NCBI RefSeq assembly: GCF_014066305.1
Contig: NW_023501081.1
Coordinates: forward strand, 372,001-436,000
Length of the DNA stretch: 64,000 nucleotides
DNA from: Letharia columbiana
Lineage: Eukaryota > Ascomycota > Lecanoromycetes > Lecanorales > Parmeliaceae
Direction of reading: 5' to 3'
This document shows positions 6,001 through 45,834 of the stretch, one piece after another (the first letter of the stretch is position 1; each line of letters begins with the position of its first letter). The notes beneath the pieces were generated by a model. That model was not told the DNA's origin and did not search any database. It saw only the letters and a list, made by a program, of their open reading frames with translations. The position numbers were made by a program, and so were the translations under genes.

Positions 6001-6705
6001 ATTTAAAATTAAAATGTTAGAGATCTAGTATTTATATATTATTATCTTATTATATATTTATTAATTAGAAGAAATATATATTACGTAATATTATAAGCTA
6101 TATTAAGATATTTAGAGTAAATTAATTTAATAGATTAAGATTCTAATAAATTAAAAATTATAAAATAAATAAATATTAGAAATAAATAATACTTATAAAT
6201 TTAAAAAGATAATTAATAATACGTTATCTTTATAAAAAGATAAAGAAATAAGAAAAAGTTTCGAGAAAATAGATGAATATAGAGATATCTTAAAGATAAT
6301 TAATTATATTATAATAGATATCTAAGCTTACTATCTAATTAAATAATAATTTTTTTTTAAAATATTATTATTACTTAATTAGTTAAATTCTTATTAATAT
6401 TATTATTAAAAGAAATAAAGAGATTATTTATTTATTTAATATTAATTATTTCTTTTTATAAAATTTAATTCTATTATTTATAAAATAATTCTATTATTAT
6501 TAATATTTCGCTATATTATAAAAACGTATTTATTAATTTTTTAAATTATTATCTAACTTTAGATATTATATAACTAAATTTTTTAAATAATTTAAATATT
6601 TTAATTAACTTATTTTAATATTTATTAATAAATCTTTTTAAATCTTCTTTAACTATATAAATATCTTATTATTATAAAAATAATTAACTCTAAAACTTAG
6701 AGATT
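1..6705 (-). mobile_element. Unassigned repeat X, copy 1 (cut by window edge)
   Basis: This block aligns in the same orientation with 7124-13844 along its whole length; for example the tacgcta motif at 31 matches the one at 7154, an offset of about 7.12 kb that grows to about 7.14 kb at the right end. Differences between the copies are mostly C/T or G/A, as RIP predicts. It begins at the window edge, so its true end is not seen. The protein-like frame is on the minus strand. I see no terminal inverted repeat and no LTR. I do not recognise the superfamily. Confidence 0.8.
4900..6065 (-). pseudogene. Decayed reading frame of element X, copy 1
   Basis: This is the counterpart of the better-read frame at 12030-13200 in copy 2. 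Both copies keep the unusual unmutated gctatgtttt (5283-5292 here), in a stretch where TpG is otherwise almost absent. The frame is broken by TAA and TAG stops of the kind RIP makes from CAA, CAG or TGG. No domain is recognised, so no function is offered. Confidence 0.45.
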
Positions 6706-7123
6706 ACCTTATAAACCTTAGTAGTAATAAGAATTTTAGATTAATTTTATCTAGATTAATTATTTTAACGAATAATGTAAACTATATAATAAAGACTATA
6801 TATCGAATTAGATAAAATGACTTATTTTAAATAATTAATATTCTCTATAATATAATAATACGAAATATCTATCGTTCTCACTTATATTAAGTTTAATTAA
6901 ACTTATTATTTTTTTAAACTTATATATTAATAAAGAGTTAATAAATAATTAATAGATAGTTAATAATATACTAATAGCGAAATAATATAGTATTAATTTT
7001 ATATTAAAGACTTATTATATATTAGTCCACTATAAGTAACTCTATATAAACTATATTTAATATCTTTAATTATACGCGCGTATTAATATATTTAGATAAT
7101 AGATATTACTTAATAGCTATTAT
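6706..7123. other. Spacer between the two X copies
   Basis: About 420 bp separate the alignable end of copy 1 from the alignable start of copy 2. It holds no open frame. It is slightly less mutated than its neighbours, with a few remaining TpG and CpA steps (aataatgtaaac near 6771, tctcactt near 6876, tagtccacta near 7023). It does not reappear after copy 2, where element Y starts, so it is not a shared LTR. It may be the upstream end of copy 2, whose equivalent in copy 1 would lie beyond the window edge. Confidence 0.5.
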
Positions 7124-13100: not shown

Positions 13101-13844
13101 TATTTTCTAATATAATTATCTCGAAAAATAATAGATCTAAAATTAAAATATTAGAGATCTAACGTTTATATATTATTACTCCGCTATATATTCGCTAATT
13201 ATAAGAGATATATATTATATAATATTATAAATTATATTAAGATATCTAAAGTAAATTAATTTAATAAATTAAGATTTTAATAAATTAAGAATTATAGAAT
13301 AAATAAATATTAGAAATAAATAATAGCTATAAATTTAAAAAGGCGATTAATAATACGCTATCTTTATAAGAAGATAAAGAAATAAAAAAGAGTTTTAAGA
13401 AAATAGACGAGTATAGAAATATCTTAAAGATAATTAATTATATTATAATAGATATCTAAGCTTATTATCTAATTAGATAATAGCTTTTTTTTTTAGAATA
13501 TTATTATTACTTAATTAGCTAAATTTTTATTAATATTATTATTAAAAGAAATAAAGAGATTATCTATCTATTTAATATTAATTATTTCTTTTTATAAGAT
13601 TTAATTCTATTATTTATAAAATAATATTATTATTATTAATACTTCGCTATATTATATAAATATATTTATTAATTTTTTAAATTATTATCTAGCTTTAGAT
13701 ATTATATAACTAAGTTTTCTAAATAGCTTAAATATTCTAATTAGCTTATTTTAATATTTATTAATAGATCTTCTTAAATCTTCTTTAATTATATAAATAT
13801 TTTATTATTATAAAAATAATTAGCTTTAAGATTTAAGAATTAAA
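7124..13844 (-). mobile_element. Unassigned repeat X, copy 2
   Basis: Second direct copy of the element at 1-6705. It keeps more CpG than copy 1 (for example cgcgagac near 8427) and was used for reading. The right end stops at the start of element Y near 13845, where copy 1 instead continues into other sequence. Either Y landed at the end of X or X is truncated there. The long frame lies on the minus strand, so transcription would have run from right to left. No reverse transcriptase, DDE or helicase motif was recognised with confidence. Confidence 0.8.
12030..13200 (-). pseudogene. Decayed long reading frame of element X, copy 2
   Basis: Read on the minus strand, this region gives one continuous frame of several hundred codons in which nearly every stop is TAA or TAG, consistent with mutated Gln or Trp codons. 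The conceptual product is rich in Ile, Leu, Asn, Lys and Tyr, which is the expected bias after RIP. Recognisable runs include SVSYIN followed by KDIYFFNPLYLFK, then a Tyr/Ile-rich segment. I could not tie these to a known transposase with certainty. The plus strand and the other minus frames are broken much more often, which is the reason for calling the strand. Confidence 0.5.
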
Positions 13845-16800
13845 TTTAAAATCTTACTCTCACGCTATAAAGAGCTCTTTATAAAAAAAAAAGAAATTTA
13901 ATTTTAATTTTTAAAATATTAGATAATTCTATAAAACGTTTTAGATTAAAATATAATAATATTTAATTTATATAGAATATAGGATAATATTATTAATAAA
14001 GGAAAGATAACTAATTTTTTAATATTTTCGAGATATTAAAATCGCTAAATTCGCTTCTTTAATAAATATTATTTTAGAAAATCTATAGTCTAAGAGTTAA
14101 TCTATTTATACTATTTATTATTCTCCGTAATCTTCTACTTTTTTTATTTTTTTTATTTATTCTAATAGTAATAATAGTTATTCTTTTATTTATTATAATA
14201 TATAATAAGTTTTTTAAGATATCTAGTATAAAATAAATTAAGAGAATAAATATATAATTCTAATTTATTTCTATAAGCTCTTTATCTAAATCTATTTTAG
14301 AAAAAACTTTAAAAAAAAGAAAGATAGCTTTTTAACCCGCTAATATAAAGAAATTTAAAATATATAAACTCTCTAAGATAGAGTTAAATTATTAAGAAAT
14401 TACTATATTAAGCGATAAAAAAGAAAATAAAAATAAAAATAAAAGATTTAATAAGTTAAAATTTATAAAGAATAGATAAAAAATAAGTTTTCTTTTTTTA
14501 AAATATTAATATTTTTAATATATAATATTTAGAGTATTAATACTCTAGAAAAGAATAAAGTAGATAAAAAGCTTAATAATATTATACATTAAGAAGAGAT
14601 TTTTAAGAAGAGTATTAAATAGATATTTAGAATATCTAAGTCGAAGTCTTAATAGAATAATATACTATTTATATCTAAAATTAATAACTTATTATATTTT
14701 ATTAATAATATTTAAATTAAATTTAATAAGCTTTTATATAACTATCGAGTTATATATTTTATATATTTTAATTTAAATAAAGTTATATATATTATTAAAT
14801 TTATTTAAAAAGATAATATTAAGTAATATAATTAGAAATAGATTAAGAATAGATATCGCCTTAATTAAAATAATATAAATTAAAAAAATTATTTTATTTT
14901 AAATATAATTATAAATATAATTTATTTTAATATTATCTCTATAATTTATTTATTAATTAATTTTTATAAAAAAAATTAAGATTATAGACTTTTTAAAAAA
15001 GAATATAATAAATATCTTAATTACTATTATAGAATCTAAGGCTTTAATATATTAATTTATAAATAAATATTTATCTAATTCTTTTATCTAGATTTTTAAT
15101 TTTTTTAATAATATTATTAATATATTTAAATTAGATAAAATAAATAAAAAATAATATTTCTACTTTAAAAATAAATTAAATCTAAATATTTATTTTTAAT
15201 ATTTTAATATTAATCTTATAGTAAAATATTTAATTAATCTTCGATATTAGAGTTAAGCTATATATAAATTAATTTTAAAATAAAAATAAATATATTAAAT
15301 CTTCTTATTCTTATTATAATTTACTTCTTTAAATAAATAAAATAATTTTTTTATTAAAGTATAATAGCTATTAAGATAAGAACTTTATTATATTAAAGAG
15401 TAAATAATAATATAGTAATAAAGTAAAGAATAAATTAAATTTCTCGAATAACGACTTAGATTATTACTTTAAAAGAATACTATTATTATCTTTTTAATAT
15501 ATTAAAAAGTCTAATAATATCTTTATTAAAGAGAAGTAAATTATATATTAAATATTTATTACTATTTAAGATCTATATTTTATTATCTTTATATATACTT
15601 ATTTATTTAAATTTATAATTTACTATTTATCTTTACTTTATATATATTATATCTTTAAAAAAATATAATCTATTAAATTATTTAAGAGTTTATAATAAAT
15701 AGAAAATTAGAATTAATATTTACTTTTATAATAATAATACTTTAGAATATAATAAATAAATTATATTTTATAATTTAAGTAAAATATAATATTAAAATAA
15801 CTTTTATACTTTTAAAATATTTATTTAATATATATATATTAAATAATTTATAATAATAAGATAATAAAAAAAGAGTATTTTTTTAGACTTTTTAAAGAGT
15901 TATAGTATTTCTTATATATATAATTACTTTAATATTTTAATTATATCTCTATTATAAAATAGATAAAATTAAGATTTATTATAAAATATTAATAAAATTA
16001 ATTTTAAATTTTAAAGAATAATTATTAAATAATATTAAGTATAAATAAAAATATATAAATTTAATATAAAATAATAACGATAAGATAAATTATTTATTTA
16101 TTTTATTTTATTATATACTATTATAATTTTCTTTAAATTCTACTTTATTATATAAAAATCTAAATTAATAAAATAAGATTTAAAGTCTTATAATTTTTTA
16201 ATTATTTTTAACTTTAATTTTATATTACGTAATCTACTTAAACTTTATAAATTTTTTTTTTTTTATATTAATTAAATAGTAAATAATATAATATATTAAA
16301 TATTATATATATTAATTTAAAATAATATTTTTTATTTTAAATTCTAGCGTTAATATTAATAAGTTTTATTATTTATTTAATAAATTAGCTAGTTATATTA
16401 TAAAGCGCTTTTTTAAAAATATAAATATTATAATAATTAATATATTTATTATTAATATATTTATTTATCTATTTATTATTTTTAGCTTTTTAAAATTATA
16501 AAATTAAATAACTAATTTATAATATAGTAATAACTTTAATTTCTTAAAGAATATTATTTCTTTATTTTATATTTTTATTTTTATTTAAAATAATATAAAG
16601 CTTAATAATATTATTTAGAATAAAATATATAAAATTAAATTTATCTTATATAAGAAGAAGATATAGATATTAATATTAGAAAATAAGATTATAGAATTAA
16701 GAAGAGAGAGAATAAAGTAATAGATTTTAATAAAGAATAAGTATAATAGTATTTAAATAAATTATTAATTAATTAATATTACTATTTTAAATATATTATA

Positions 16801-18590: not shown

Positions 18591-19260
18591 TTAGTATATA
18601 TAAAAGAATAAGGTAGGGCTGAGCTTAGAAATCTTAAATTTGTATATGCAGTCAATTATAAATTCGAGTCCTATACGCTTTTTAATTAGACCGGCTAAGT
18701 TAGCCCAATAGCCCTTCCAAGCTCCCTTATCAAAAATTTATATATAGAAATTTTATACTCTAAAATAACCAGCTTTTTATAGATACTATTTCTTTATAAT
18801 TTCGTAAATTAAAGAGTTTAATATACGCTTTTTAACGTTATAAAAATAATAAAGTTTAATCTACTATTAATAAATTAAATAAATATTTAAATATAGTAAT
18901 TATAGTAATTATATTAGACGCGTCCGAGATTAAATAATAATCCTTCTATCTATTTATATAACTATTCTTCTTTTATTATTCTACTATATATTAATTTCAT
19001 TAATATAAATATAATTATCTTCGATACCCCTCGCTTAAAAATTACTTAATATCTTAGATATATATACTTCTTTTATCTACCTCTTAAAGCCTCTATTAAC
19101 GCCCCTAGACTATTTCTTAGCGAATTCGCTATTATTAATAATTAAGGTTATAAGCGCGTCTAAAAACTATCTATTATTATTTATAAACAACTTAAAAAAC
19201 TCTTAAAAAGAGTCTAAACGAATACGTTCTCTTTTATAGATTTCTTCTAAGCTAGCGATA
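18591..19260 (+). repeat. Helitron 5' subterminal region
   Basis: About 670 bp match the reverse complement of 38160-38844 (unmutated copy) and the plus strand of 63107-63780. It contains the conserved ggtagggctgagctt block near the tip, a ctttttaattagaccggct segment, and a gacgcgtccg motif near 18920. No protein frame runs through it. Its conservation in every copy suggests it holds the sequences recognised by the Helitron Rep protein and a promoter, but this is inference. Confidence 0.75.
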
Positions 19261-21639
19261 GTATACTTAGCGATACTACCTCTTAAAATATATCTTTCTC
19301 CTCTATTTATTCTTTATTACTCTATTTTAAAATTTCTTAACGCGTATTAAATCTTAAATATTATTAAGAAGAAGCTTCTAAATAAGAGAAAGACGCTATC
19401 GAAAATCCTCTATTATAAGATTTACTATTAAACTTTTTTAATAATAACTCTTTCGATAGCCTACGTTCTTTTAATCTATCTTTTAATTTTTATTTAGATT
19501 TTATTTAGCTTTTAATAAGGTTTATTAACTATATCGCGTATTACTTATATACTATAAAGTCTATATAATATAATTTAAATTCTATAAATTAGATTTATAA
19601 TCGCTATAATATAGCGTTATAAAAAAATAAGATAGTTAAGTAATACTACGATAGCGAAAAAATTAAAGTTAATATATCTAAAATAAATAAGGTGAATAAT
19701 ATAAAATAAAATTATAAGGGCGTTAAAATAAGTATAAACGATTTAATTAATTCTAGCGAGTATATTATTAATTAAATCCTTTACTCTTTAATATTAAAGA
19801 CCTCGAATCTTATTAATAATAATAAAGAATTCTATCGCTATAGCGTTTAATATAATAATATAATCTCTATAGTCTTATAGTAGATTACTATTAATTATTT
19901 AATCGCTTTATATATATATAAAATTTAAAAAATAATTACTATTTATATACTTACTCTAGCGCTTTTAAAAGGCGAAAAATTGATATTTAGCTAAATCTAT
20001 ATTATAAATAATATTTAAGATTAATTTATAATACGATATAATTTTCTCTCGATCGCGTTTTTTATACTAACTTTATTAGATATAACTACTATAATTATAT
20101 TAATTAGACGCTTTATCGTAAAATAGCTATAAATCTTAGAAGTATTAATTTCTATATTAACGCCTTTAAATTGATATCTAAAAGATTAAAGATTAATTCG
20201 AATATATAGAACTATAAGCTATTTTATAAAAACTTATAATATTATAATTTATATATCTATAATTATCTTATTTTAAATAAAATCGCTATTATCTAGAAGA
20301 ATATTATTAATAACTTATTAAATATATTTAAGGCTAGAAATATATTAATAGAAGCTAAAAATAATAAGAGATTTAATATTTCATATTAATATTTAATCTA
20401 TATACTCTTATACTATTCTCTTATCTTTCTATTTAGCGAATAATTATAATATAATAATATATCTAATATAGATATTATATTAAATAGAAGTCTTTTTATC
20501 TAGCGAAGTAGAAATAGCGAAGTTATCTTATAAATTAGAGAAATTATTAAATAAGATAATTCTAAATAAATAACGCTTATTTTATATTATAGATTTATCT
20601 TATTTATTTCTTCTATTCTATTAATCGCTAACTTTTTATAAATATATAATATAAAATTATTCTAGTAAATTTAATCGCCTTTTTTATTACAATAGATTAT
20701 TATAATATTTCGTCTACGATATCTATATAACTATTAAAAATAATAAACTCTATTAATTAAAGATAAATTAGAAGACTATTTAAACTAATATCTATTAAGT
20801 AATTATCGATATTTATATTAATAAAGCTACTATAAGTGATTAGACTAGCAAATAACGTATTATCCTTTCTTCCTTCTATTAAGAAGACTTACGATTTATA
20901 AAATAACTCTATTAGAATATTATTACTCTATCTATTAAATTCAACCGATTAAATCTCTTTATAACTTTCATCTATAACTTAAAATAGATTAAGATTATCG
21001 AAAATCTTCTATTTAGCGAATACGCTATTAATCGACCTAATCTAATTACTAGAATATTTAAACTAAAGCTAAAAACTCTTATAAATAATATTCTAAAAAA
21101 AAGATATTAGATATACTTTTATTCTTCTTATTCTCTATTATAGTATAATAGTTCTCTCTTATCTTATTTAATAGAATAGCCCCTTAGACGATATATTAAT
21201 TAGACGATTAGTATAAATTATAATCTCTAAAGATATTTCTAATATAATTTAGTCTACTATATATTATAATTCTTATTAATTAGCTTTACGATATTATCTA
21301 ATTTTTTTTTTACTCTTATAAGAGCGAAGTATAGTTGATTAAAATATCGATTAGCTCTAACTCTAACTGACTTTACGAGTAATAAATCGAGTTTCGATTT
21401 ATATCTATATTATTAAATTTTAAAAACGAGATCTATCGTATACTTATATTCTTATTATTTTATACTTTAAAGATCGATTCTTTAGCGCTATTAAGGTCGA
21501 CGCCGCTATTAATATTAAGATCTCTAATTAAAAACTATTTTTTAATCTCTATACGATTATTATTAGATATATACTTTATAGAAATTATAATTAATATACT
21601 ATTAATAGAATAGATATTATTTTATCTTATTAAAATTTA

Positions 21640-21960
21640 GATAAAAATATATATAATAAGCAGTTTCCGAAGGACTTTAGCGATTATATTATCTTTAAAT
21701 TAGACTTTAAATATTTTATATATCGTCGACGTAGATCTATTAAGATATTAGATAATAAATTTAAATAGAATTACTAAGTAATATTTTATAGTCTTTATTT
21801 ATTAGTTAAATATAACGCTTATATTAATATAAAGATCTACGCTAATATTAAAGTTTATAAATATATTTTTAAATATATTTATAAGGGTAGCGATTAAGCT
21901 AATTTTTAAATAGAGCGTAAGAGCGATATAGATTAAGACGATATAGGTTTAAATTAGATA
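21640..21960 (+). pseudogene. Helitron Rep-region remnant (Helitron-like N domain)
   Basis: Conceptual translation gives QFPKDFSDY, then YRRRR at 21721, then KYNAYINIK followed by YKYIFKYIYKGSD (about 21808-21900). This order and spacing (FPK.F.D, YRRR, LL.KYN.HINVE, VKY.FKY.YKG) is the conserved block downstream of the HUH nuclease in Helitron proteins. The upstream HUH motif itself was not located with confidence, although the region 20600-21600 should contain it. Stops between the motifs are TAG/TAA of RIP type. The equivalent in Helitron 3 lies at about 42420-42740 on the minus strand. Confidence 0.85.
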
Positions 21961-22675
21961 AATAAGATTTAAGAGTATTAAAACGCACGGTAAATAGACT
22001 CTATAAAAGTCTATTAAAGGATTTTTAGCTTTAAATTATATAATTATAATCCTTCTATCGAATAGTTATTTATTTATCTTTCGAATTAATAGAGTGTAAT
22101 ATTTAATAATAATAATAATCTATTCTATATAATTAATATAGAATATAAATATTAAATTAAGCTAATAGCCTTCTTTTAGCTAAATTAATAATATTAATAG
22201 AAAAGATAAGTAGAAGATCTTTTTTATACTAATCTATCGATATAATATATCTAAAAAAAGAATAAGCGAGGTATATTTAAATAAAGTCTATATTAGAGGT
22301 ATAGGAGTATTATTATAAGAATATACTATATTAATTTAAACGCTAGAAAGCTCTTCTATCTATAATATCTCCTTCTAAACATATTAAATTCTATATTCTT
22401 CGAAGACTTATATACGATAGACGATAATATCCTTTCTTTTTATTATAATATCTATATAATAAAAGGTTTACTTTATAATAATATCGAATAAAATTAAGTA
22501 TTAAATAAAGTAGCGATTTAATAGAGAGAATACGTCTTATAAAATCTCTTTATAATAATTCTACTATAATATAAGCCCGATAACTCTCTAAATCTATAAA
22601 ATAATTATAAATTAAGATATATAAATAATTTCTTCTTTATCGAATAAAAATACTTTAAGCGTAATATAAATAGCT

Positions 22676-22925
22676 TACCGCGCTAACGGTGATATTAAAA
22701 TATTATAACTTTTTTTTAATATAATATTTCTTTTTTTATATACTAAAACTTTTCGCGCTAGATATATTTTTTCTTAATAATTTCTTTAATAAATTAAAGT
22801 ACTTTAAGCTATAGAATAAGAAGATTACCGCGCTAACGATAATTTTAAAATATTATAATTTTTTTAATATAATATTCTTTTTTTAATTATTAAAACTTTT
22901 CGCGCTAGGCGTATTTTTCCTTTTT
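22676..22925 (+). repeat. Internal 150-bp tandem duplication in Helitron 1
   Basis: Two direct copies, starting with taccgcgctaacg at 22676 and 22826, each ending with aaaacttttcgcgctag. The same two-copy arrangement is present inverted in Helitron 3 (41405-41640). It lies between the Rep block and the helicase block, where it would fall in a spacer or intron-like segment. The short motifs cgcgctaacg and cgcgctag are unusually GC-rich for the neighbourhood because CpG and GpC steps escape RIP. Confidence 0.8.
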
Positions 22926-23059
22926 TTATCTATAAATAATTTAATTCTTCTCTCGCACTTTACATATATTTCTTAACTAATACTTATTATTCTTTATTTA
23001 AATTATTTAATAATTTTATTTATATTCTTTAAACTTAGTATTATACTCTCTCTCTATTA

Positions 23060-24720
23060 AATAATATATAATATAAATAAATTATCGCGAAAGACTTTTA
23101 TCTTTATTTAATTTAAATCCGCTTAAAGAAAAATAATATTAACTTTATAAAAGATATTAATCTTATTATCGACTTTAATCTACTTATAATCTAGCGAGAC
23201 TATAAATAGTATTATATTAATAATTAAAATTAACTTCTACGCGAAGTATATAGCTATTAAATTAATATCTAAAATTAAATATAGATAAGTTTTAATAATA
23301 ATTAAATTATTATAGCTAAGATTATTTAAAATATAATCTCTTATTTTAATAGCTAACTCTTCTTTCTCGATAGCTATAAAGATATTAATAAGATTATACT
23401 TTAGAATATCGTATTATAAAGAATACGAAATAATTTTAAGATAGCTATTACTATAACTTTATTTAATATTACCTCTATTCTCCTTTAAGATAATATTATT
23501 ACTTATTCTCGCTTTAAGATTTCTCTTAATATTATTACTTAGTTTAATTATAATATATCGATAAGATTTAATTTAGCTTAATTATTAAAGGCGATTAAGC
23601 TTATTTTCTAAGATAAGATCTTTATATAAAACTACTACGATATTAAAATCATTAATTATATACTCTAAGATATTTAAAAAAACTCTACTTCTTTTAATAA
23701 TATAATTATATACTTCTACGATGATTTTTATTAAATCCTTTTAATTATTAAGAATATTAAGTTAGATTATATCGCTTAGACTACGTTAAAGGCGTTCTAT
23801 CTTTAAAATTATATTTAAATTCTTAAATTAATAGAAAATATAAAGCTTCGAAATCTTAATTTTATTAATTAAGATTAAATTAATATAAAGGAATTCGCTT
23901 AAAGACTATTAGATATAAATAATAATATCTTAATAAGCTTTAAAAAATAAGAAGCTATCGATTAATTTATTAAGTAACTATTAAACGACTTTATTATTTA
24001 GCTAATTAATACTATTTATAATAATCTTAACTTATATTAAATAGCTAATTTCTATATATTTAAAACGATTCTTTATATTCTTAATAAGAATATCGCTTAA
24101 TTTAATAATTAAGTTCTCGATAAGTTCTTTAAAATTAAGATCGTTTATAATAGTAAAGATTAAGTCGTTAATAAGAAAGATAGCTTTCTTTTATCTACTA
24201 AAATAATAAATATCTTTAAATTAACCTCGCTTTTACTCTATTATTTAGAATTAAAATAGAATTATATAATAATATTATTAAGGAATTTAAAGTAGCGTAT
24301 AGATCTATATAATAGAATATATCTATAAATTAAATATATTAGATTTAAAATACTTAATTATTATATTTTTAAAGACGAATATAATAATAAATAATATTAT
24401 ATATTATATATTCCTCTAACTCCGCCTAATTTAAACGATCTATATACTCTCTTTTAATATATTTAATTCTTAATTCGATTAGTCTTTAATATAATAATTA
24501 ATAAGATCTAGAACTAATTATTATAGTAGATTAATTTATATTTATATTCTAAAATCTTTATTTATAGTTAATTATATATAACTCTAAGTCGAGTTATTAA
24601 TAAGATCGATTTATTAATTATAATCTTAAGCGATTTATTAAGAAAGTAATTTACTTAATTAACGAGGTATATTAAAAATAAGATTATTAAGTAGATACTT
24701 CTTTTTTAAATAAGAATATA
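23060..24720 (+). pseudogene. Helitron Pif1-type helicase remnant
   Basis: The plus frame carries the full order of Pif1/RRM3-type helicase motifs in RIP-altered form. FLD-SYKDINKI at 23363-23395 occupies the Walker A position; every change from a GYGGTGKT-type loop needs only G-to-A or C-to-T. It is followed by an AITITLFNI-like segment, HSRFKI-like and LIF.DKIFI segments (Walker B region), a DF.QILLI-like segment, ILKLIENI, and near the C-terminus LTPPNLNDLY, an INKI.N.L segment and a QLYIILSRV-type motif. This is the replicative helicase half of a Rep-helicase. Many TAA/TAG stops make it non-functional. Confidence 0.9.
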
Positions 24721-24724
24721 ATTA

Positions 24725-24988
24725 ATTAGCGATCTATAGTAATAGAAGTAGATTATTTATTATATAAAAAGTAAGTAAAGTTCGATTTAACTTAGAGTTA
24801 GAGCTTTTATCTTCTTTATTAATTTTATAGTAATAAAAGTAGATTAAAAACGTATAGTAAGCGATTAGAGTTCGATTTATACTTAGAGTTAAAGCTAAAA
24901 TTCGATTTAACTTAGAAAAATCCAACTTTATTTAACTTAAAAAAATAAAAATCCAACTCCATAAATTTAATTCATAGGCCTTTACTTA
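24725..24988 (+). repeat. Helitron 1 3' subterminal repeats and terminus
   Basis: Contains several copies of a short unit around cgatttaacttaga and aaaaatccaact, then the decayed terminal hairpin and cctttactta. The intact version is at 36509-36640. A 63-codon antisense open frame here (24734-24925) has a relative in the intact copy, but both follow the repeated DNA and are best explained as chance frames in a conserved non-coding end. Confidence 0.7.
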
Positions 24989-27795
24989 TATTAAATAATA
25001 TAATTAAGAATAAATTAAGAATAAATATTATCTTAATTAGAATAATATAAATTAAAAAATTTATTTTATTTTAAATATAATTATAAGTATAATTTATCTT
25101 AATATTATTTTTATAATTTATTTATTAACTAATTTTTATATATAAATAAAGATTATTAACTTTTTAAAAAAGAATATAATAAATATATTAGCTATTATTA
25201 TAAGATCTAAAATTCTAATATATTAACTTATAAATAAATATTTATCTAATTCTTTTATTTAAGTTTTTAACTTTTTTAATAATATTATTAATATATTTAA
25301 ATTAGATAAAATAGATAAAAAGTAATACTTCTACTTTAAAAGTAGGTTAAGTTTAAATACTTATTTTTAATACTTTAATATTAATCTTTTTATAAAATAT
25401 TTAATTAATTTTCGATATTAGAGTTAAGCTATATATAAATTAACTTTAAAATAAAAATAAATATATTAAATCTTCTTATTCTCGCTATAATTTACTTCTT
25501 TAAATAAATAAAATAGATTCTTTATCGAAATATAATAATTATTAAAATAAGAATCTTATTATATTAGAGAGTAAATAACGATATAATAATAAAATAAAAG
25601 ATAAACTAGATTTCTCGAATAATAATCTAGACTATTACTTTAAGAAAATATTATTATTATTTTTTTAATATATTAAAAAATCTAATAATATCTTTATTAA
25701 AAAGAAATAAATTATATATTAAATATTTATTATTATTTAAAATCTATATTTTATTATCTTTATATATATTTATTTATTTAAATTTATAATTTACTATCTA
25801 TCTTTACTTTATATATATTATATCTTTAGAGAAATATAATTTATTAAGCTATTTAAGGGTTTACGATAAATAGAGAGTTAGAATTAATATCTACTTTTAT
25901 AATAATAATATCTTAAAATATAATAGATAAATTATATTTTATAATTTAAATAGAATATAATATTAGAATAACTTTTATATTTTTAAAATATTTATTTAAT
26001 ATATATATATATTAAATAATTTATAATAATAAGATAATAGAGAAAAAGTATTTTCTTAGACTTTCTCGAAGAGCTATAATATTCTTTATATATATAATTA
26101 CTTTAATATTCTAGCTATATCTTTATTATAAAATAAATAAAATTAAGATTTATTATAAAATATTAATAAAATTAATTTTAAATTTTAAAGAATAATTATT
26201 AAATAATATTAAATATAAATAAAAATATATAAATTTAATATAAGATAATAGCGATAAAATAAATTATTTATTTACTTCGTTTTATTATATACTATTATAA
26301 TTTTCTTTAAATTCTACTCTATTATATAAAAATTTAAATTAATAAAATAAAATTTAAAATCTTATAACTTTTTAATTATTTTTAATTATTTTTAATTTTA
26401 ACTTTATATTACGTAGATTACTTAAACTCTATAAATCTTATATTATTTTTATATTAATTAAATAGTAAATAATATAATATATTAGATATTACGTATATTA
26501 ATTTAAAATAATATTTTTCATTTTAAATTTTAGTATTAGTATTAATAAGCTTTATTATTTATCTAATAAACTAGCTAGTTATACTATAAAACGCTTTTTT
26601 AAAAATATAAATATTATAATAATTAATATATTTATTAATAATATATTTATTTATTTATCTACTATTTCTAGTTTTTTAAAATTATAAAATTAAATAATTA
26701 ATTTATAATATAGTAATAACTTTAATTTCTTAAAGAATATTATCTCTTTATTTTATATTTTTATTTTTATTTAAAATAATATAAAGCTTAATAATATTAT
26801 TTAAAATAAAATATATAAAATTAAATTTATCTTATATAAGAAAAAGATATAGATATTAATATTAAGAAATAAGATTATAAAATTAAAAAGAAAGAGAATA
26901 GAGTAATAGGCTTTAATAAAGAATAAGTATAATAATATTTAGATAAGTTATAAATTAATTAATATTAATATCTTAAATATATTAGAAATAAAGTTAATTA
27001 TATTATAAATAAAATTCTTAATTAAGCTTTAAGAACGTCTTTAAAACTAAGTTATATCGTTTATATAGTCTTTTTAGAATAAGATAATACTACTAAAATT
27101 ACGGAATAAGTATTTTATATTAATTATAATAAGAAGTTAAATAATAATTATAATAATTAATATAGTTATTTTATTTTTTAATATTTTTAGATATAGAGAA
27201 GGATTAAAAAAGGTTTAATATATAGAAAACGATTAATATATCTTTATCGCTAAATTTAATAGATAAATATTCTATCGATAGAATTTTATTTTTATATCTA
27301 TAAATTCTATATTATTAATATATTTATATTTCTTAATCTTATTTAAAATTTAGAAAAATTATAATTTTTTATTATTATTATTTAAGCTATTTTTTAATTT
27401 AAACGCTATTTATAATAGCGAATATCTAAATTAATTATATTATATACGTATTATATAATATTAATTTATACTTTTCACTATTTATAATTATCGATATTAT
27501 AATTATAAATACGCTATTTTAATAAATATCATCTTTTTTTATTAACGATTTATTAATTTATAGTTAATAAAATAATTTTATAAGATACTTTAAGTCTCTT
27601 ATAGCTATCTATTCTTAATATTAAATTATTAATAATACTTTAAGCTAGATATATATTTGATATAAATATAATATATATAATATATTAATAGAAATCCGAA
27701 AAGTGAGTATTAAGTTAATAAGGTATATTTTTCGACTATATAAGTGTGGAAGGTTAGTCAAAAATTCTTAAAGTGCGTGTTTCCTCTAAGGTAAT
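24989..27795 (+). mobile_element. Repeat Y copy B, right part
   Basis: Continues the element interrupted at 18590 and aligns with about 14817-17618 of copy A. Its last 110 bp (from about 27685) again show low mutation, keeping gtgtggaaggttagtc and gtgcgtgtttcctctaagg. Immediately after the end lies gtaattaccc, followed by the copia fragment. The plus-strand frame described for copy A continues here in equally decayed form. Confidence 0.85.
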
Positions 27796-35539: not shown

Positions 35540-35847
35540 TTTAATAAAGTTATTCGATATAGCCTCTCTCTATAAAGGCCTTCGCGTAGTACTCTATATA
35601 TACTTAAATAAGAGTAATTTACGAGTTCGAGTTTTTATAGATTTTTAGATAGAGTATCTTCGTTAAGACGACTATCTTAGCTAAATAGTCGAATAAAATA
35701 AATAACTTTTAAATTAATAGTTAGATCTAATCAATCAAGTATTCCACCTACTACTTTTAATATAGCGAACTCGAATTTATAATTGGCTATATATACAAAT
35801 TCAAGGTTTTTAAGCTTAGCCCTATCTTATTCTTTTATATATACTAA
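35540..35847 (-). mobile_element. Helitron 5' end fragment (inverted)
   Basis: The block ggctatatatacaaattca to tatatatactaa (35783-35847) matches the 5' tip of the intact Helitron at 38844 on the minus strand, with the end at 35847 reading TTAGTATATATA on the minus strand. Only 80-90 bp align closely; the more internal sequence (35540-35760) differs from Helitrons 1-3 and is only lightly mutated (tcaatcaagtattccacc near 35730). It may be a different non-autonomous subtype. Confidence 0.7.
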
Positions 35848-35852
35848 TAATA

Positions 35853-36508
35853 CGAGTAAAGGCCTATAAATTAAATTTATAATCGTTTTTTTTAATTAGA
35901 GCTATCGAGTGTAAGCGATCTTTAATAAGCGATCTTTAATGAGCGATATTTGAATTTCTTACGCTTTAATAAATATGAGACTAAATTTAATAATTCTTTT
36001 TTTATCTAAAAGCCTATATTACGTTCTATAATTTAAAAAAAGAATCTTAAAATTTTAATAGAAAATAAAAAGGTTATTTTAAAATTAAATATTCTATATT
36101 TAATTAGAGCTATTCGGCTATCGAGCGAACTTTAATAAGCGATATTTGAATTCCTTGCGCTTTAATAATTATAAGACTAAATTTAGAAATTCTTTTTTTA
36201 TCTAAAAGCCCATATTTTATTCTATAATTTAAAAAAAAATCTTAAAAATTTAATAGAAAATTAAAAAATTATTCTATATATTAATAATATATATCTATCT
36301 TTTTTAATAATTGCGAATATTAATTTATTTATTTATAGATAGCTATTACGCGTATAGTCTCTATCTACTAGACGTATAGTTTTTCCTTTAAATTAGATAT
36401 ACGTAGTCTTAAGAGCTTTTAAGCTAGTAATCTTGCTATCTATTCGATAATCGCCCGAAAATAACAAATGCGATTTCTACTACTATTATTAATACTATTA
36501 CTCTATAA
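35853..36508 (-). mobile_element. Second Helitron 3' end with 208-bp tandem repeat
   Basis: Begins with cgagtaaaggcc and the decayed hairpin tataaattaaatttata, the 3' terminus of a Helitron read on the minus strand, only 5 bp from the 5' end of the previous one. Beyond the hairpin it differs from the other copies. It has two tandem units starting with tttaattagagctat at 35891 and 36099 (208 bp apart). Its right part (36300-36390) matches the reverse complement of 47090-47175. Its own 5' end was not found, and it may be interrupted by the Helitron at 36509. Confidence 0.65.
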
Positions 36509-36640
36509 CAAGTAAAGGCCCATGAATTAAATTCATGGAGTTGGATTTTTCTAAGTCAAATGGAGTTGGATTTTTCCAAGTCAAATGGAATTTTAGCCCT
36601 AGCCCTAAGTCAAATCGAACTCTGATCGCTTGCTGTGCGT
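36509..36640 (-). repeat. Helitron 2 3' terminus with hairpin
   Basis: A 9-bp stem, ccatgaatt (36520-36528) pairing with aattcatgg (36530-36538), lies 10 nt from the terminal CTTG. This is the position of the hairpin in Helitron 3' ends that acts as a stop signal for rolling-circle transfer. The terminus is CTTG rather than the textbook CTRR. Just inside are two copies of a 25-bp unit containing gacttrgaaaaatccaactc. Confidence 0.85.
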
Positions 36641-36732
36641 TTTTGACCTACTTCCACCACTACGAAATTGATTTAATCTATGTAGTATACAGGCACATAT
36701 GTGCGGAGAGAGGCGCGCTAAGGCCTAATTAG
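36535..36732 (+). other. Small open frame in Helitron 2 end (probably not a gene)
   Basis: A 65-codon frame running antisense to the Helitron. The related frame in Helitron 1 (24734-24925) shares a segment like SKSNRTLIACCAFLTYFHH, in RIP-altered form. Shared sequence is expected because the DNA end itself is conserved. The first half is just the translation of the 25-bp repeats. No ribosome-context or domain evidence supports translation. Confidence 0.25.
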
Positions 36733-36945
36733 GAAGGTGTAATAATTGCCTATAAAAAACAGAGAAAGGCTATGTCCTTATGGCAAGAAGTATCGAAATA
36801 TCGGAAAGAAATGGAGACAACGTGCTAATTAGTGGTGTGAATCCCACAATATCTCCTGCCGCAGTGAAATTTTTCGAATAATGAAATAGCTGTAGACATC
36901 GGACGGTTTCAATTCGTCCAAATATGCATCGTTCCGGAGTGATGA
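36640..36945. other. Unique internal segment of Helitron 2
   Basis: About 300 bp without counterpart in Helitrons 1 and 3. It has normal composition and includes aggcacatatgtgcggagag near 36690 (with an acatatgt palindrome) and gggtgtgaatccc-like text near 36835. It could be a captured fragment of host DNA. A 66-codon minus-strand frame (36770-36970) crosses it but has no recognisable domain. Confidence 0.4.
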
Positions 36946-38155
36946 TTTGATGTGGAACCGTGGAGAGCATATGACGTGGGATCTTGGAGAGCTGAGCCGT
37001 GTTCTTGGTGCTGGGGGCCTTGTTGCCGCTTGGTTTCTCCGCAGTGTTCTCTATAGTGTTCTTCGCAGTGTTCTCCGCATTTGCCTGTTGTAGTTCCTCC
37101 TCTTACTCCTTAATATAGTGGGGATGATAGGCTAAGTTGCAGTGGTGTTCTCCGCTTACTAAGTAATAATTTGATGTGGAACCGTGGAGAGCATATGACG
37201 TGGGATCTTGGAGAGCTGAGCCGTGTTCTTGGTGCTGGGGGCCTTGTCGCCGCTTGGTTTCTCCGCAGTGTTCTCCATAGTGTTCTCCGCAGTGTTCTCC
37301 GCATTTGCCTGTTGTAGTTCCTCCTCTTACTCCTTAATGTAGTGGGGATGATAGGCTAAATTGCAGTGGTGTTCTCCGCTTACTGAGTGATGATTTGATG
37401 TGGAATCGTGGAGAGTATATGACGTGGGATCTTGGAGAGCTGAGCCGTGTTCTTGGTGCTGGGGGCCTTGTTGCCGCTTGGTTTCTCCGCAGTGTTCTCC
37501 ATAGTGTTCTCCGCAGTGTTCTCCGCATTTGCCTATTGTAGTTCCTCCTCTTACTTCTTAATGCAGTGGGGATGACAGGCTAAGTTGCAGTGGTATTCTC
37601 CGCTTGCTGAGTGATGATTTGATGTGGAACGGCCAAGTTGCAGTGGTGTTCTCCGCTTGCTGAGTGATGATTTGATGTGGAACCGTGGAGAGCATATGAC
37701 GTGGGATCTTGGAGAGCTGAGCCGTGTTCTTGACGATGGTGGCCTTGTTGCCGCTTGGTTTCTCCGCAGTGTTCTCCGCATTTACCTGTTGTAGTTCCTC
37801 CTCTTACTTCTTAATGCAGTGGGGATGACAGGCCAAGTTACAGTGGTGTTCTCCGCTTACTAAGTGATGATTTAATGTGGAATCGTGGAGAGCATATGAC
37901 GTGGGATCTTAGAGAGCTGAGCCGTGTTCTTGACGATGGTGGCCTTGTTACCGCTTGGTTTCTCCGTAGTGTTCTCCGCATTTGCCTGTTGTAGTTCCTC
38001 CTCTTACTCCTTAATGCAGTGGGGATAATAGGCCAAGTTACAGTGATGTTCTCCGCTTGCTGAGTGATGATTTGATGTGGAACGGCCAAGTTGCAGTGGT
38101 GTTCTTCGCTTGCTGAGTGATGATTTGATGTGGAATCGTGGAGAGCATATGACGT
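36940..38155 (-). repeat. Layered minisatellite inside Helitron 2
   Basis: The motif tttgatgtgga (one tttaatgtgga) recurs at 36946, 37170, 37394, 37618, 37671, 37871, 38071 and 38124, giving spacings of 224, 224, 224, 53, 200, 200 and 53 bp. The 24-bp difference between long and short units equals two copies of a 12-bp subrepeat (cgcagtgttctc). The 53-bp step is a partial unit, ggccaagttgcagtgg to tgatttgatgtggaac, duplicated alone. Minus-strand frames of 64-83 codons (37110-37304, 37334-37528, 37551-37781, 37838-38089) read the 12-bp unit as Arg-Arg-Thr-Leu and are by-products of the repeat. Confidence 0.93.
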
Positions 38156-38844
38156 CCGGACGCGTTTGGTGTGACTACAATATTTGAATATTAGTTTAAC
38201 CCATCTACCGCTGGCTTAGAAGGAGTATATAGGGGAGGACGTATCCGTTCGGGCTCTTTTTAAGGGCCTTTTAACGCGTTTATAAGCAGTAGTAGGTAGC
38301 TGTTAAGCTCGCTTGCGGCCTCGATTGCCAGCAGTAGCGGATTCGCCGAGGGGTGGCCTGGGGGCGTCAGTAAGGGGCTCTAATTGGGCGAGGGGTACCG
38401 AAGACGATTATGTTCATATTGGTGGAATTGGTAGAATTGATAGAATTGATAGAATTGGTAGAATAGTGAAAGAATAATAAACAGGTGGAAGGATTATTAT
38501 CCGATCCCGGACGCGTCTGGTGTGACTACCATGACTACCATATTTGAATATTCATTTAATCCACTAATAGTAGGCCAAACTTCATAATTTTTACAGCGTT
38601 AGAAAGCGTACACTAAGCTCTATAATTTACGAAATTATGAAGTAATAGCATCCGTAGGGAGCTGGTTATTTCAAAGTGTAAAACTTCTACATACAAATTT
38701 TTGATGAGGGAGGCGCGGGAGAGCTACCGGGCTGACTCAGCCGGTCTAACTAAAAAGCGTACAGGACCCGAATTGATGATTGGCTGCACATACAAATTCA
38801 AGGTTTTCAAGCTCAGCCCTACCTTATTCTATTATATATACTGA
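38156..38844 (-). repeat. Helitron 2 5' subterminal region with duplicated block
   Basis: A block of about 45 bp beginning ccggacgcgtYtggtgtgac occurs at 38156 and 38507, 351 bp apart, and is followed both times by atatttgaatatt. Between them is a 9-bp microsatellite, five units of the ggtagaatt/gatagaatt type at 38421-38465. The same arrangement survives in mutated form at 60470-60950. The outer 330 bp, with a gggctgactcagccggt near 38729, are shared with all other Helitron 5' ends in the window. Confidence 0.88.
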
Positions 38845-39148: not shown

Positions 39149-39199
<51 letters not shown>

Positions 39200-39226
39200 T
39201 TTAAAAAAAATAAAAAAAAATTATTA

Positions 39227-39312
<86 letters not shown>

Positions 39313-39314
39313 AT

Positions 39315-39368
<54 letters not shown>
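39141..39368. repeat. Long poly-T / poly-A tract
   Basis: About 30 T (39152-39181) followed by nearly 190 bases that are almost all A, with a few T interruptions. It sits exactly where Helitron 3 should have its 3' hairpin. A similar tract lies near the other end of that Helitron (45777-45932). It may be a real low-complexity sequence or an assembly or consensus error. Confidence 0.8.
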
Positions 39369-39373
<5 letters not shown>

Positions 39374-39599
39374 TTTTTCTAAGTTAAATAAAGTTAGATT
39401 TTTCTAAGTTAAATCGAATTTTAGCTTTAGTCTTAAGTTAAATCGAACTCTAATCGCTTACTATACGTTTTTAATCTACTTTTATTACTATAAAATTAAT
39501 AAAGAAGATAAAAGCCTTAACTCTAAGTCGAATCGAACTTTATTTACTTTCTATATAATAAATAATCTACTTCTATTACTATAAATCGCTAATTAATTA

Positions 39600-41260
39600 T
39601 ATTCTTATTTAAAAAAGAAGTATCTACTTAATAATCTTATTTTTAATATATCTTATTAATCGAGTAAATTATCTTCTTAATAAATCGTTTAAAATTATAA
39701 TTAATAGATTAATCTTATTAATAATTCGACTTAGAATTATATATAATTAATTATAAATAAAGATCTTAGAATATAGATATAGATTAATCTACTATAATAA
39801 TTAGCTTTAAAATTTATTAATTATTATATTAAAGATTAATTAAATTAGAAATTAAATATATTAAAAGAAAGTATATAGATTATTTAAATTAGGCGGAGTT
39901 AGAGGAATATATAATATATAATATTATTTATTATTATATTCGCTTTTAAGAATATAATAATTAAGTATTTTAGATTTAATATACTTAATTTATAGATATA
40001 TTTTATTATATAAATTTATACGCTACTTTAAATTTCTTAATAATATTATTATATAATTCTATTTTAACTTTAAATAATAAGATAAAAGTAAGATTAATTT
40101 AAAGATATTTATTATTTTAGTAGATAGAAGAAAGCTATCTTTCTTATTAACGACTTAATTTCTATTATTATAAATAATCTTAATTTTAAAAAACTTATTA
40201 AGAACTTAATTATTAAATTAAGCGATATTCTTATTAAGAATATAAAGAATTATCTTAAATATATAGAAATTAGCTATTTAATATAGATTAAGATTATTAT
40301 AAATAGTATTAATTAGTTAAATAATAAAGTTATTTAATAATTACTTAATAGATTAATTAATAGCTTCTTATTCTTTAAAGCTTATTAAGATATTATTATC
40401 TATATCTAATAGTCTTTAAGCGAATTTCTTTATATTAATTTAATCTTAATTAATAAGATTAAGATTTTAAAGTCTTATATTTTTTATTAATTTAAGAATT
40501 TAAATATAATTTTAAAAATAGAATATTTTTAATATAGTTTAAGCGATATAATCTAACTTAATACTCTTAATAATTAAAAGAATTTAATAAAAGTTATTAT
40601 AGAAGTATATAACTATATTATTAAAAGAAGTAAGATTTTTTTAAATATCTTAAAGTATATAATTAACGATCTCGATATTATAGCGATTTTATATAAAGAT
40701 CTTATTTTAGAAAATAAGCTTAATTATCTTTAATAATTAAGTTAAATTAAACTCTATTAATATATTATAATTAAATTAAATAATAATATTAAGAGAAATC
40801 TTAAAGCGAGAATAAGTAATAATATTATTTTAAAGAAGAATAAAGATAATATTAGATAAAGCTATAGTAATAGCTATTTTAGAGTTATTTTATACTCTTT
40901 ATAATATAATATTCTAAAGTATAATCTTATTAATATCTTTATAGTTATTAAGAAAGAAGAGTTAACTATTAAAATAAGAGATTATATTTTAAATAGCGTT
41001 AGTTATAATAATTTAATTATTATTAAAACTTATTTATATTTAATTTTAGATATTAATTTAATAGCTATATACTTCGCGTAGAAGTCGATTTTAATTATTA
41101 ATATAATATTATTTATAATCTCATTAAATTATAAATAGATTAAAGTTAATAATAAGACTAATATTCTTTATAGAGCTAATATTATTTTTCTTTAAGCGAA
41201 TTTAAATTAAATAAAAATAGAAGTCTTCGACGATAATTTATTTATATTATATATTATTTA
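39600..41260 (-). pseudogene. Helitron 3 helicase remnant
   Basis: Reverse complement of this interval aligns through its length with the helicase block of Helitron 1 (23060-24720), including the segment that carries the altered Walker A loop (about 40925-40960 here, ttaatatctttatagttatt on the plus strand) and the C-terminal LTPPNL block near 39895. Independent C/T and G/A differences from Helitron 1 show that each copy decayed separately. No intact frame remains. Confidence 0.82.
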
Positions 41261-41404
41261 ATAAAAAAAGAATATAATATTAAGTTTAAAGAATATAAAT
41301 AAGATTATTAAATAATTTAAATAAAGAATAATAAGTATTAATTAAGAAATATATATAAAGTATAAATAAAGAATTAAATTATTTATAGATAAAAAAAGGA
41401 AAAA

Positions 41405-41640
41405 TACGTCTAGCGCGAAAAGTTTTAATAGCTAAAAAAAGAATATTATATTAAAAAAAGTCGCGATATTTTAAAATTATCGTTAGCGCGATAATCTTCT
41501 TATTCTATAACTTAAAATACTTTAACTTATTAAAGAAATTATTAAAAAAAAATATATCTAACGCGAAAAGTTTTAATATATAAAAAAAGAAATATTATAT
41601 TAAAAAAAGTTATAATATTTTAATATTATTATTAGCGCGA
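41405..41640 (-). repeat. Duplicated 150-bp spacer block in Helitron 3
   Basis: Two units with ctagcgcgaaaagttt or ctaacgcgaaaagtttt and cgttagcgcgata-type ends, the inverted equivalents of 22676-22925. Because the duplication is present in both Helitrons, it predates their separation. Confidence 0.78.
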
Positions 41641-42399
41641 TAAGCTATTTATATTATACTTAAAGTATTTCTATTTAATAAAAAAGAAATTATTTATATA
41701 TCTTAATTTATAATTATTTTATAGATTTAGAGAATTATCGAGTTTATATTATAGTAGAATTATTATAAAGAGATCTTATAAATAATATTCTCTCTTTTAA
41801 ATCGCTACTTTATTTAATACTTAATTTTATTTAGCGTTATTATAAAGTAAGCCTCTTATTATATAGATATTATAATAAAAAAAAAGAATATTATTATTTA
41901 TTATATATAAGTCTTTAAAGAATATAGAATTTAATATATTTAGAAGAAGATATTATAGATAAAAGAGCTTTCTAGCGTTTAAATTAATATAATATATTCT
42001 TTTAATAATATCTCTACGCCTCTAACGTAAACTTTATTTAAATATATCTCGCTTATTTTTTTTTAGATATATTATATCGATAGATCGATATAGAAGAAAT
42101 CTTCTATTTATCTTTTCTATTAATATTATTAATTTAATTAAAAGAAGACTATTAGCTTAATCTAATATTTATATTTTATATTAATTATATAAAATAAATT
42201 ATTATTATTATTAAATATTACGCTATATTAATTTAAAAGATAAATAAATAATTATTTAATAGAAGAATTATAATTATATAATTTAAAGCTAAAAATTCTT
42301 TAATAGACTTTTATAGAGCTTATTTATTATATATCTTAATACTTTTAAATCTTATTTATCTAATTTAACTCTATATTATTCTAATCTATATTATTTTTA

Positions 42400-44500
42400 T
42401 ACTCTATTTAAAAATTAGCTTAATCGCTACTCTTATAAATATATTTAAAAATATATTTATAAACTTTAATATTAATATAGATCTTTATATTAATATAAGC
42501 GTTATATTTAATTAATAAATAAAAACTATAAAATATTATCTAATAATTCTATTTAAATTTATTATCTAATATCTTAATAGATCTATATTAATAATATATA
42601 AAATATTTAAAATCTAATTTAAAGACGATATAATCGCTAAAGTTCTTCGAAAATTACTTATTATATATATTTTTATCTAAGTTCTAATAAGATAAAATAA
42701 TATCTATTCTATTAATAATATATTAGCTATAATTTCTATAAAGTATATATCTAATAATAATTATATAGAGATTAGAAAATAGATTTTAATTAGAGATCTT
42801 AATATTAATAGCGATATCGATCTTAATAACGCTAAAGAATTAATCTTTAGAGTATAAAATAATAAGAATATAAATATATAATAAGCCTTATTTTTAAAAT
42901 TTAATAATATAGATATAGGTCGAAACTCGATTTATTACTTATAAAGTTAGTTAGAATTAAAGCTAATCGATATTTTAATTAATTATACTTCGCCTTTATA
43001 GAGATAAAAAAAAAATTAAATAGTATTATAGAGCTAATTAATAGAAATTACGATATATAATAAATTAAATTATATTAGAAGTACTTTTAGAAATTATAAT
43101 CTATATTAATTATCTAATTAATATATTATTTAAAAAACTATTCTATTAAATAAAATAAGAAAGAGCTATTATATTATAATAAGAGATAAAAAGAATAGAA
43201 GTATATCTAATATCTTTCTCTTTAGAATATTATTTATAAGAGTTTTTAGCTTTAATCTAAATACTTTAATAATTAGATTAAATTAATTAATAGCGTATTT
43301 ATTAAATAAAAGATTTTTAATAATCTTAATTTATTTTAAATTATAGATAAAAGTTATAAAGAGATTTAATTAATTAAACTTAATAAATAGAGTAATAATA
43401 TTCTAATAGAGTTATTTTATAAATTATAGATCTTCTTAATAGAAGAAAGAGAGAATAATATATTATTTATTAGTCTAATTATCTATAATAACTTTATTAA
43501 TATAAATATTAATAATTACTTAATAGATATTAATTTAAATAATCTTCTAATTTATCTTTAATTAATAAAGTTTATTATTTTTAATAATTATATAGATATT
43601 ATAAATAAAATATTATAGTAATCTATTATAGTAAAAAAAATAATTAAACTTATTAAAATAACTTTATATTATATATTTATAAAAAGTTAGTAATTAATAG
43701 AATAGAAGAAATAAATAAAATAGATCTATAATATAAGATAAGCGTTATTTATTTAAAATTATCTTATTTAATAATTTCTCTAATTTATAAAATAACTTCG
43801 CTATTTCTACTTCGCTAAATAAGAAAACTTCTATTTAATATAATATCTATATTAAATATATTATTATATTATAACTATTTATTAAATAGAAAGATAAGAG
43901 AATAGCGTAGAGATATATAGATTAAATATTAATATAAAATACTAAATCTCTTATTACTTTAAGTCTTTATTAATATATTTCTAATTTTAGATATATCTAA
44001 TAAATTATTAATATTACTCTTTTAGATAATAGCGATTTTATCTAAAATAGAATAATTATAAATATATAAATTATAATATTATAGATTCTTATAAAATAGC
44101 TTATAATCTTATATATTCGAATTAATCTTTAATCTTTTAGATATTAATTTAAAAGCGTTAATATAGAAATTAATACTTTTAAGATTTATAGTTATTTTAT
44201 AATAAAGTATCTAATTAATATAATTATAATAGCTATATCTAGTAAAGTTAATATAAAAAACGCGATTAAAAGAAAGTTATATCGTATTATAAATTAATCT
44301 TAAATATTATTTATAATATAGATTTAATTAAATATCGATTTTTCGCTCTTTAAAGATATTAAGATAGATATATAAATAGTAATTACTTTCTAGATTTTAT
44401 ATATATATAAGATAATTAAATAATTAATAATAATCTACTATAAGATTATAGAGGTTATATTATTATACTAAACGCTATAACGACGAAATTCTTTATTATT
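42400..44500 (-). pseudogene. Helitron 3 Rep-region remnant
   Basis: The interval 42420-42740 is the reverse complement of the Rep block of Helitron 1, with the KYN..INIK and FKYIYK segments readable on the minus strand at about 42440-42530. The region up to about 44500 aligns with 19800-21640 of Helitron 1, where the N-terminal part with the HUH nuclease is expected. The frames are broken throughout. Confidence 0.7.
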
Positions 44501-45519
44501 ATTAATAAGATTTAAGATCTCTAGCGTTAAAGAGTAAAGGATTTAATTAATAATATACTCGCTAAAATTAATTAAATCGTTTATACTTATTTTAATACTC
44601 TTATAATTTTATTTTATATTATTTATCTTATCTATTTTAGATATATTAACTTTAATCTTTTCGCTATTATAGTATTACTTAACTATCTTATCTTTTTATA
44701 ATATTATATTATAGCGATTATAAATCTAATTTATAAGATTTAAATTATATTATATAGACTTTATAATATATAGATAATACGCGATATAGCTAATAAGTCT
44801 TATTAAATATTAAATAGAATTTATATAAAAATTAAAAGATAAGTTAAAAGAATATAGACTATCGAAAAAGTTATTATTAAAGAAATCTAATAGTAGATCT
44901 TATAATAGAGAATCTTCGATAGCGTCTTTCTCTTATTTAAAAGCTTTTTCTTAATAATATTTAGAATCTAATACGCGTTAAGAGGCTTTAAAATAGAATA
45001 ATAAAGAATAAATAAAGAAAGAAAGCGCGTTTTAGAAGATAATATCGCTAAATTAAAAGATATTATCGCTAGCTTAAAAGAAATCTATAGAGAAAAATAT
45101 ATTCGTTTAAGCTCTTTTAAAGAGTTTTTTAATACGTTTATAAGTAGTAATAGATAGCTATTAAACTCGCTTACGGCCTCGATTATTAGTAAGTAACAAA
45201 TTTATAAAAGATAATCTAAAGATTATTAGTAGAGGCTCTAAAAGAAATAAAAAGTAAAAGAAGAATATATATATCTAAAAGATATTAAATAATCTTTAAA
45301 TACGTCTGATATAACTATCATAATGATTTATTTAAATATTTTTTTTTTCGAATATAAGACTATTATTATATTTATAGGTTAATAAAGAATTAATATTTAT
45401 AATAAAATAGTAAAAGAATAATAGTTATAGGTAAATAGATAAAAGGATTATTATTTAAAATTTTAAATATTTCTCTATAAAAAATTATTATATTTAAATA
45501 TTTATTTATTAAAAAAATT

Positions 45520-45834
45520 TTTATAAATTAAAAAAAAAAAAAAAATAATTAAATTTTAAAAAAAAAAAACTATCTTATTCTTTTATATATACTAATAGAA
45601 AAACTTAAGAATTTAAAACTTCTCTTTTATATTTTTAATTAATTCTTTTTAAAAATAGATAGAACTATATAACTATTTATACTAGTCTTATTAAAATATT
45701 TTCTTTTTAAAAATAGAATTATTAATTCTCTCTTATATTATATATAATAATTAAGACTAAAATAAAATTATTTTCTTTTTAATTTTTTTTTAAAAAATTT
45801 TTCTAAATAAATAAAGGAGAAACTTTTTAAAAAA

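Follow-up and report, generated by a model that had tools for sequence, protein, structure and literature searches.

A probable non-autonomous Helitron with Helitron1-like anatomy in RIP-mutated DNA of the lichen-forming fungus Letharia columbiana

A 2336 bp segment on the minus strand of contig C46 of Letharia columbiana (NCBI RefSeq NW_023501081.1) was identified as very probably (about 93%) a non-autonomous Helitron with Helitron1-like anatomy, mobilised by the mechanism proposed below. The element occupies coordinates 36509..38844 of the 64,000-nucleotide stretch of DNA that was analysed (the window; contig positions 372001–436000), in an assembly of 52.24 Mb and 161 contigs. The assignment draws on exact ends common to other copies, on the empty site and on GC content, and these features, together with the target, the RIP signature and the presence of identical termini on Rep-helicase copies, were observed directly. 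GC content is 0.459 in the element versus 0.225 and 0.134 in the flanking kilobases, and 114 other 2336 bp stretches had a mean GC of 0.138 and a maximum of 0.201, making the element the sole GC-normal block in the window. No open reading frame of 120 amino acids (aa) was present anywhere in the window, the array inside the element included, and searching this stretch for Rfam families and tRNA genes gave 0 matches.

In minus-strand orientation, the first bases of the element are TCAGTATATATAATAG and its last part is a hairpin followed by GCCTTTACTTG, and the layout at its boundaries is A|TCAGTATATATAA ... hairpin, GCCTTTACTTG|T. The true 5′ terminus, TCAGTATATATAATAGAATAAG (38823..38844, minus strand), is preceded by a host A and includes a 5′ TC, as TCAG at 38841–38844. 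The same terminus was found on Rep-helicase copies at two other loci, L071 and L073, and reads TTAG at the corresponding 5′ end of L071, which is RIPed. A region of ~640 bp at the 5′ side (38205..38844) is shared with a 6.4 kb autonomous element, with 72% identity to window positions 18593–19261, and repeat analysis revealed an internal tandem array of 200- to 224-bp units at 36932..38155. The 3′ region (36510..36672) is also shared with the autonomous element (80% identity, 170 columns), and includes a subterminal hairpin with an 8-bp stem (36520..36538) lying 11 nt from the true 3′ end. When folded as DNA this hairpin has an energy of -6.3 kcal/mol (z -2.55), and only 3 of 200 shuffles fold equally well or better, whereas no such advantage over shuffles is seen at the true 5′ terminus (z 0.90). 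The true 3′ terminus, CTTG (36509..36512, minus strand), is followed by a host T, and the boundary at 36508..36509 together with that at 38844/38845 forms an A|T empty site.

The two end regions were used as BLAST queries against 38 fetched loci and the window, giving 34 rows for the left end and 56 for the right. The base flanking the left end was A in 33 of 34 rows, and that flanking the right end was T in 48 of 51, a count that leaves out 5 of the 56 rows, in which over 4 bases at the end were unmatched. The rows are partly non-independent, with one locus (L061; C108:28748–31572) giving an identical left flank twice. The left flank and terminus are repeated in this locus at 175 and 2783, ~2.6 kb apart, resembling a duplicated segment. 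Genome-wide, the end patterns were counted 650 and 1675 times with at most one mismatch, figures that take in autonomous copies and fragments, while reversed-pattern controls gave 0 and 0. Exact 3′-end patterns had 0 matches in viral and prokaryotic contig collections. Elsewhere in the window, at 35826–35872 on the minus strand, a family 3′ terminus (ending CTCG) and a 5′ terminus lie 5 bases apart.

The empty site was examined using the window flanks joined at 36508/38845 as a query, and 40 of 111 genome candidates were scored. Two of the 40 rows were the window itself and 2 stopped short of the junction, while the remaining 36 crossed it. The matched length was equal in query and genome in 19 of these 36, though the other 17 showed small net length differences, with small indels somewhere in the row, which counts against the Helitron reading. 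Since 36 paralogous sites in the genome match these flanks without interruption, the element entered a member of a dispersed repeat at an exact A|T, without duplication or loss. We infer from present composition that this repeat was already RIPed at the time of insertion. Three nested insertions in sister copies (L053, L038 and contig C35) gave the same picture, their joined flanks aligning gap-free to uninterrupted copies across A|T. The shared ends of dispersed copies and the lack of a target duplication make the element a Helitron in the broad sense. That the segment is no transposon at all, and instead a GC-rich piece of host DNA surviving among RIPed sequence, is scarcely credible: tandem arrays without a long open reading frame could be read in that way, but there are many copies with exact ends, and a host relic is ruled out by the 36 paralogous sites running across the junction. 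The initial annotation, which had placed a non-autonomous Helitron of normal base composition, with exact family ends and an A/T target, at precisely these coordinates, is borne out by the base composition, the end counts, the flanking bases and the empty site. It had also named ends that failed to coincide in other copies as grounds for giving up the idea, and the ends do coincide.

A RIPed autonomous relative of 6398 bp with ends TTAG...CTTA was located on the plus strand of the window (18591..24988), and is 79% identical over its length to L071, a second full-length RIPed Rep-helicase copy with family ends. It includes the remains of a Rep domain (PF14214; 20634..21104, plus strand) with 12 stops and of a PIF1 helicase (PF05970; 23309..23923, plus strand) with 18 stops, both detected as profile matches, and was thus as dead as had been claimed. 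Rep precedes the helicase in the 5′-to-3′ sense, and the sense of these two genes identifies the TC end as the 5′ end. This copy and L071 therefore provide the autonomous partner, with Rep, a PIF1-type helicase and identical ends, though both are RIPed. The sequence YIFKY, which we take to be the two-tyrosine motif of Rep, is retained in both. HAHI, presumably the HUH motif and found in a relative at locus L070, corresponds in the alignment to YTYI for the window copy and to HIYI for L071, the pattern expected of C>T changes in histidine codons. The HUH motif is therefore incomplete in both of the RIPed family copies read, a point against the Helitron reading. A second RIPed copy of the autonomous element lies on the minus strand at 39369..45399 and is 88% identical to the first over that stretch, with the last 40 positions unmatched; by this copy, a true 5′ terminus is found at 45574–45595 (minus strand). 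A poly-T and poly-A tract occupies 39152–39368, where its 3′ end is expected. Direct repeats ~10.2 kb apart (14962–16542 and 25133–26728) flank the first autonomous copy on both sides, and a series of direct repeats with a spacing of about 7.13 kb at 1–14200 is probably two adjacent RIPed copies of a 7-kb unit.

Canonical Helitrons (Helitron1) have a TC 5′ end, a hairpin near the 3′ end, an A|T target and no target duplication, as outlined in the relevant part of a Fusarium oxysporum study (PMC5148889). The window element has the TC, the 3′ hairpin, expected about 10–12 nt before the end, and the A/T insertion. However, canonical Helitron1 ends in CTRR, and the window family has CTTG, or CTTA in the autonomous copy in the window. 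This also weighs against the main reading, though CTTG is published for HELPO2. The element works like Helitron1, yet is not filed as a strict Helitron1 because the 3′ CTRR is absent. HELPO2 of Pleurotus ostreatus is described as having a 5′ T[C/G], a 3′ CTTG, AT insertion and a subterminal palindromic hairpin, in 6.4-kb elements encoding Rep and helicase (PMC4289320). That anatomy is common to the window family, the likeness being one of published description rather than of compared sequences. Passages of that paper on HELPO2 give intact non-autonomous copies for HELPO1 only and do not report RIP, whereas the window family has both.

In Helitron2 and Helentron elements, the target is TT, or TTTT followed by T or C, and there are asymmetric terminal inverted repeats and hairpins at both ends; the window element has A|T instead, and its 5′ terminus does not fold above background. 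Reading the segment in the forward sense, as a Helitron2- or Helentron-like element starting CAAGTAAAGG and ending CTGA, is very improbably correct. CTGA does fit CTRR, and reversed-sense transposase genes are reported for FoHeli4 and FoHeli5 of F. oxysporum (PMC5148889), but TC, a co-directional Rep-helicase and the hairpin placed 11 nt before the 3′ end all belong to the minus sense, and no inverted repeat between the element ends was seen by eye. FoHeli1–5 are described there as ascomycete Rep-helicase elements with non-autonomous derivatives, and one insertion adjoining another copy is reported (PMC5148889). They differ from the window family in having asymmetric terminal inverted repeats, different ends and different targets, according to the same passages (PMC5148889). 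Satellite-bearing non-autonomous Helentrons are described for the Pacific oyster (PMC7492417). Those elements and the window element both carry tandem repeats inside a non-autonomous rolling-circle element, though the former are of Helentron type and in an animal host (PMC7492417).

The genome was also searched for an intact source. A Rep-domain profile gave 28 matches, 26 of them over the cut-off (all 35 candidates scored), and a helicase profile gave 33 (all 34 candidates scored). A complete intact Rep-helicase with family ends TCAGTATATATAA / CCTTTACTTG (CTTTACTTG end) was not found among the three open regions read (L073, L070 and L069), which is a further point against the main reading. 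Each of the three is truncated or internally deleted. L073 (C8:840800–846800, minus strand) contains a 4540-bp element with family ends, a GC content near 0.5 and an open helicase frame of 593 aa, but lacks a ~1.7-kb stretch found in the window autonomous copy, and the part of Rep bearing HAHI and YIFKY had no match in this locus. It is an un-RIPed deletion derivative of an autonomous Helitron, arranged head to tail with a non-autonomous copy. L069 (C8:878500–887500) has an open Rep domain with no helicase match listed nearby, and we take it, from its sequence, for a diverged relative of the element. A reverse-transcriptase-like frame (PF00078, below cut-off) and an element-like tandem array come after this Rep, within 3 kb. 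The same locus (C8 near 886.5 kb) was considered as a host source of the tandem unit and dropped, as further similar units and an element-like stretch were present in its sequence. On C135 the Rep part is open and the helicase has 1 stop, while Rep on C65 has 4 stops. C10 and C25 have helicase matches with no Rep match listed, and PIF1 genes of the host may account for these. When two helicase frames were compared with known proteins, close relatives were obtained, and the organisms named among the 120 listed for each were plants. The enzyme of the family may be lost, unassembled, or one belonging to a sister family.

The last of these possibilities, cross-mobilisation by a sister family in which the 3′ end is hairpin-GCCTAAACTTG instead of hairpin-GCCTTTACTTG, seems unlikely, at perhaps one chance in several. 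It is favoured by L070 (C9:116500–124500), which carries an open helicase frame of 588 aa and an open Rep part of 420 aa with HAHI and YIFKY, and lies near a sister 3′ end, CTAAACTTG. The pattern GGCCTAAACTTRT has 18 occurrences versus 4 for its reversed form. However, only the last 24 of 191 Rep-domain positions are matched in L070, with no further part listed nearby, and its 5′ end was not found.

Head-to-tail arrangements were found at several places. At L073, a copy resembling the window element is represented by its array and 3′ side, and the CTTG at its end directly abuts the TCAG of the next element. Junctions of this CTTG/TCAG type number 21 in the assembly with at most one mismatch, 8 of them exact (control 0), and duplicated segments may be among them. 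These junctions would arise if a new copy inserted at the A|T that another copy forms at its 5′ boundary, the alternative being a rolling-circle concatemer. A broader scenario is offered only tentatively, being doubtful to the same degree as the role of the sister family: in a lichen fungus with active RIP, a family of hundreds of non-autonomous copies would have persisted after the loss of its own enzyme, and would now be moved by the sister family with the CTAAACTTG 3′ end, occasionally inserting end to end against another copy, at the A|T target of its 5′ boundary.

The mutation load of the element was assessed over 688 bp of the true-5′ region, using the majority of 21 other GC-rich copies as the reference. 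The window element carries 27 C>T/G>A changes, as against 2 in the reverse direction, and 7 transversions; an earlier tally, in which the window copy voted in the majority, gave 23 RIP-type changes, 1 reverse and 5 transversions. RIP-type changes affect 17 of 79 CpA sites versus 10 of 238 other C:G sites (Fisher p 1.3e-5), and the element is thus RIP-mutated DNA, with directional C>T/G>A change and a CpA preference. Among the 41 sampled copies, taken from the window and the 38 fetched loci wherever most of the 688-bp region was covered, it ranks 21st by RIP load, with 20 of the 40 others having fewer RIP-type changes. The range is 7 to 170, and heavily mutated copies are under-represented as the loci were fetched as best matches to the window element. 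TCAG is kept in only 6 of 100 listed termini (of 1675 counted), and the window element belongs to this minority. The description of the element as nearly unmutated therefore holds for its normal GC content and its TCAG, but not for its 27 RIP-type against 2 reverse changes, and its place in the middle of the ranking removes it as the unmutated reference for the family.

As many as 23 of the 27 RIP-type changes are common to other GC-rich copies, and the 4 private ones are close to the number expected if changes were placed at random by context, 5.0 (sd 1.9); hot spots common to the copies are thus enough to explain the shared changes. The idea that these changes were necessarily inherited from a scarred source was rejected, as the private count is near expectation. 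None of the 7 transversions is private, and they may be inherited. The RIP marks would have been made after insertion. Seven matches to PF00145 (DNA methylase) at 5 places in the genome are consistent with a capacity for RIP.

The initial annotation had further proposed that the element is the newest insertion and that an intact source exists or recently existed. A newest copy whose source is still in this genome would fit the lack of any other GC-normal block in the window and the 4540-bp relative on C8, with identical ends and an open 593-aa helicase frame, but it is improbable. The RIP-type bias of 27:2, with CpA enriched, argues against it, as does the distance to the nearest sampled relative (L055), which differs at 34 of 688 sites, whereas the closest sampled pair (L032 and L033, both on C8) is separated by 7 transitions and 0 transversions in 688 bp. 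Furthermore, the C8 relative is without the Rep part carrying the HUH and two-tyrosine motifs, and the three regions read contained no intact Rep and helicase pair. Young as the window element is relative to its surroundings, its family has cleaner and newer copies.

By analogy with known Helitrons, mobilisation of the non-autonomous Helitron would begin with a Rep-helicase supplied by a relative nicking at the TC end and unwinding the element, with one strand copied and copying halting at the hairpin and CTTG. The strand would then be joined enzymatically to an A|T target, in this case within a dispersed repeat, leaving no duplication, and RIP would subsequently have lightly altered the new copy.

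A Helitron has not been described for Letharia in the literature searched, a weak negative as it covered few subscription papers, and a paper on Letharia ploidy mentions repeats but not Helitrons in the passages concerned (PMC10512270). A report on another lichen fungus, Cladonia rangiformis, describes RIPed segments that contain new insertions whose GC content is genic (PMC12542154). The present analysis adds, from a lichen-forming fungus, an abundant Helitron family with empty-site proof to a kind already known. A GC-normal island in RIPed DNA can itself be lightly RIPed, and copies should be compared before one is used as an unmutated reference. The graded RIP damage across copies with identical ends, from 7 to 170 changes, could order bursts of transposition against RIP.
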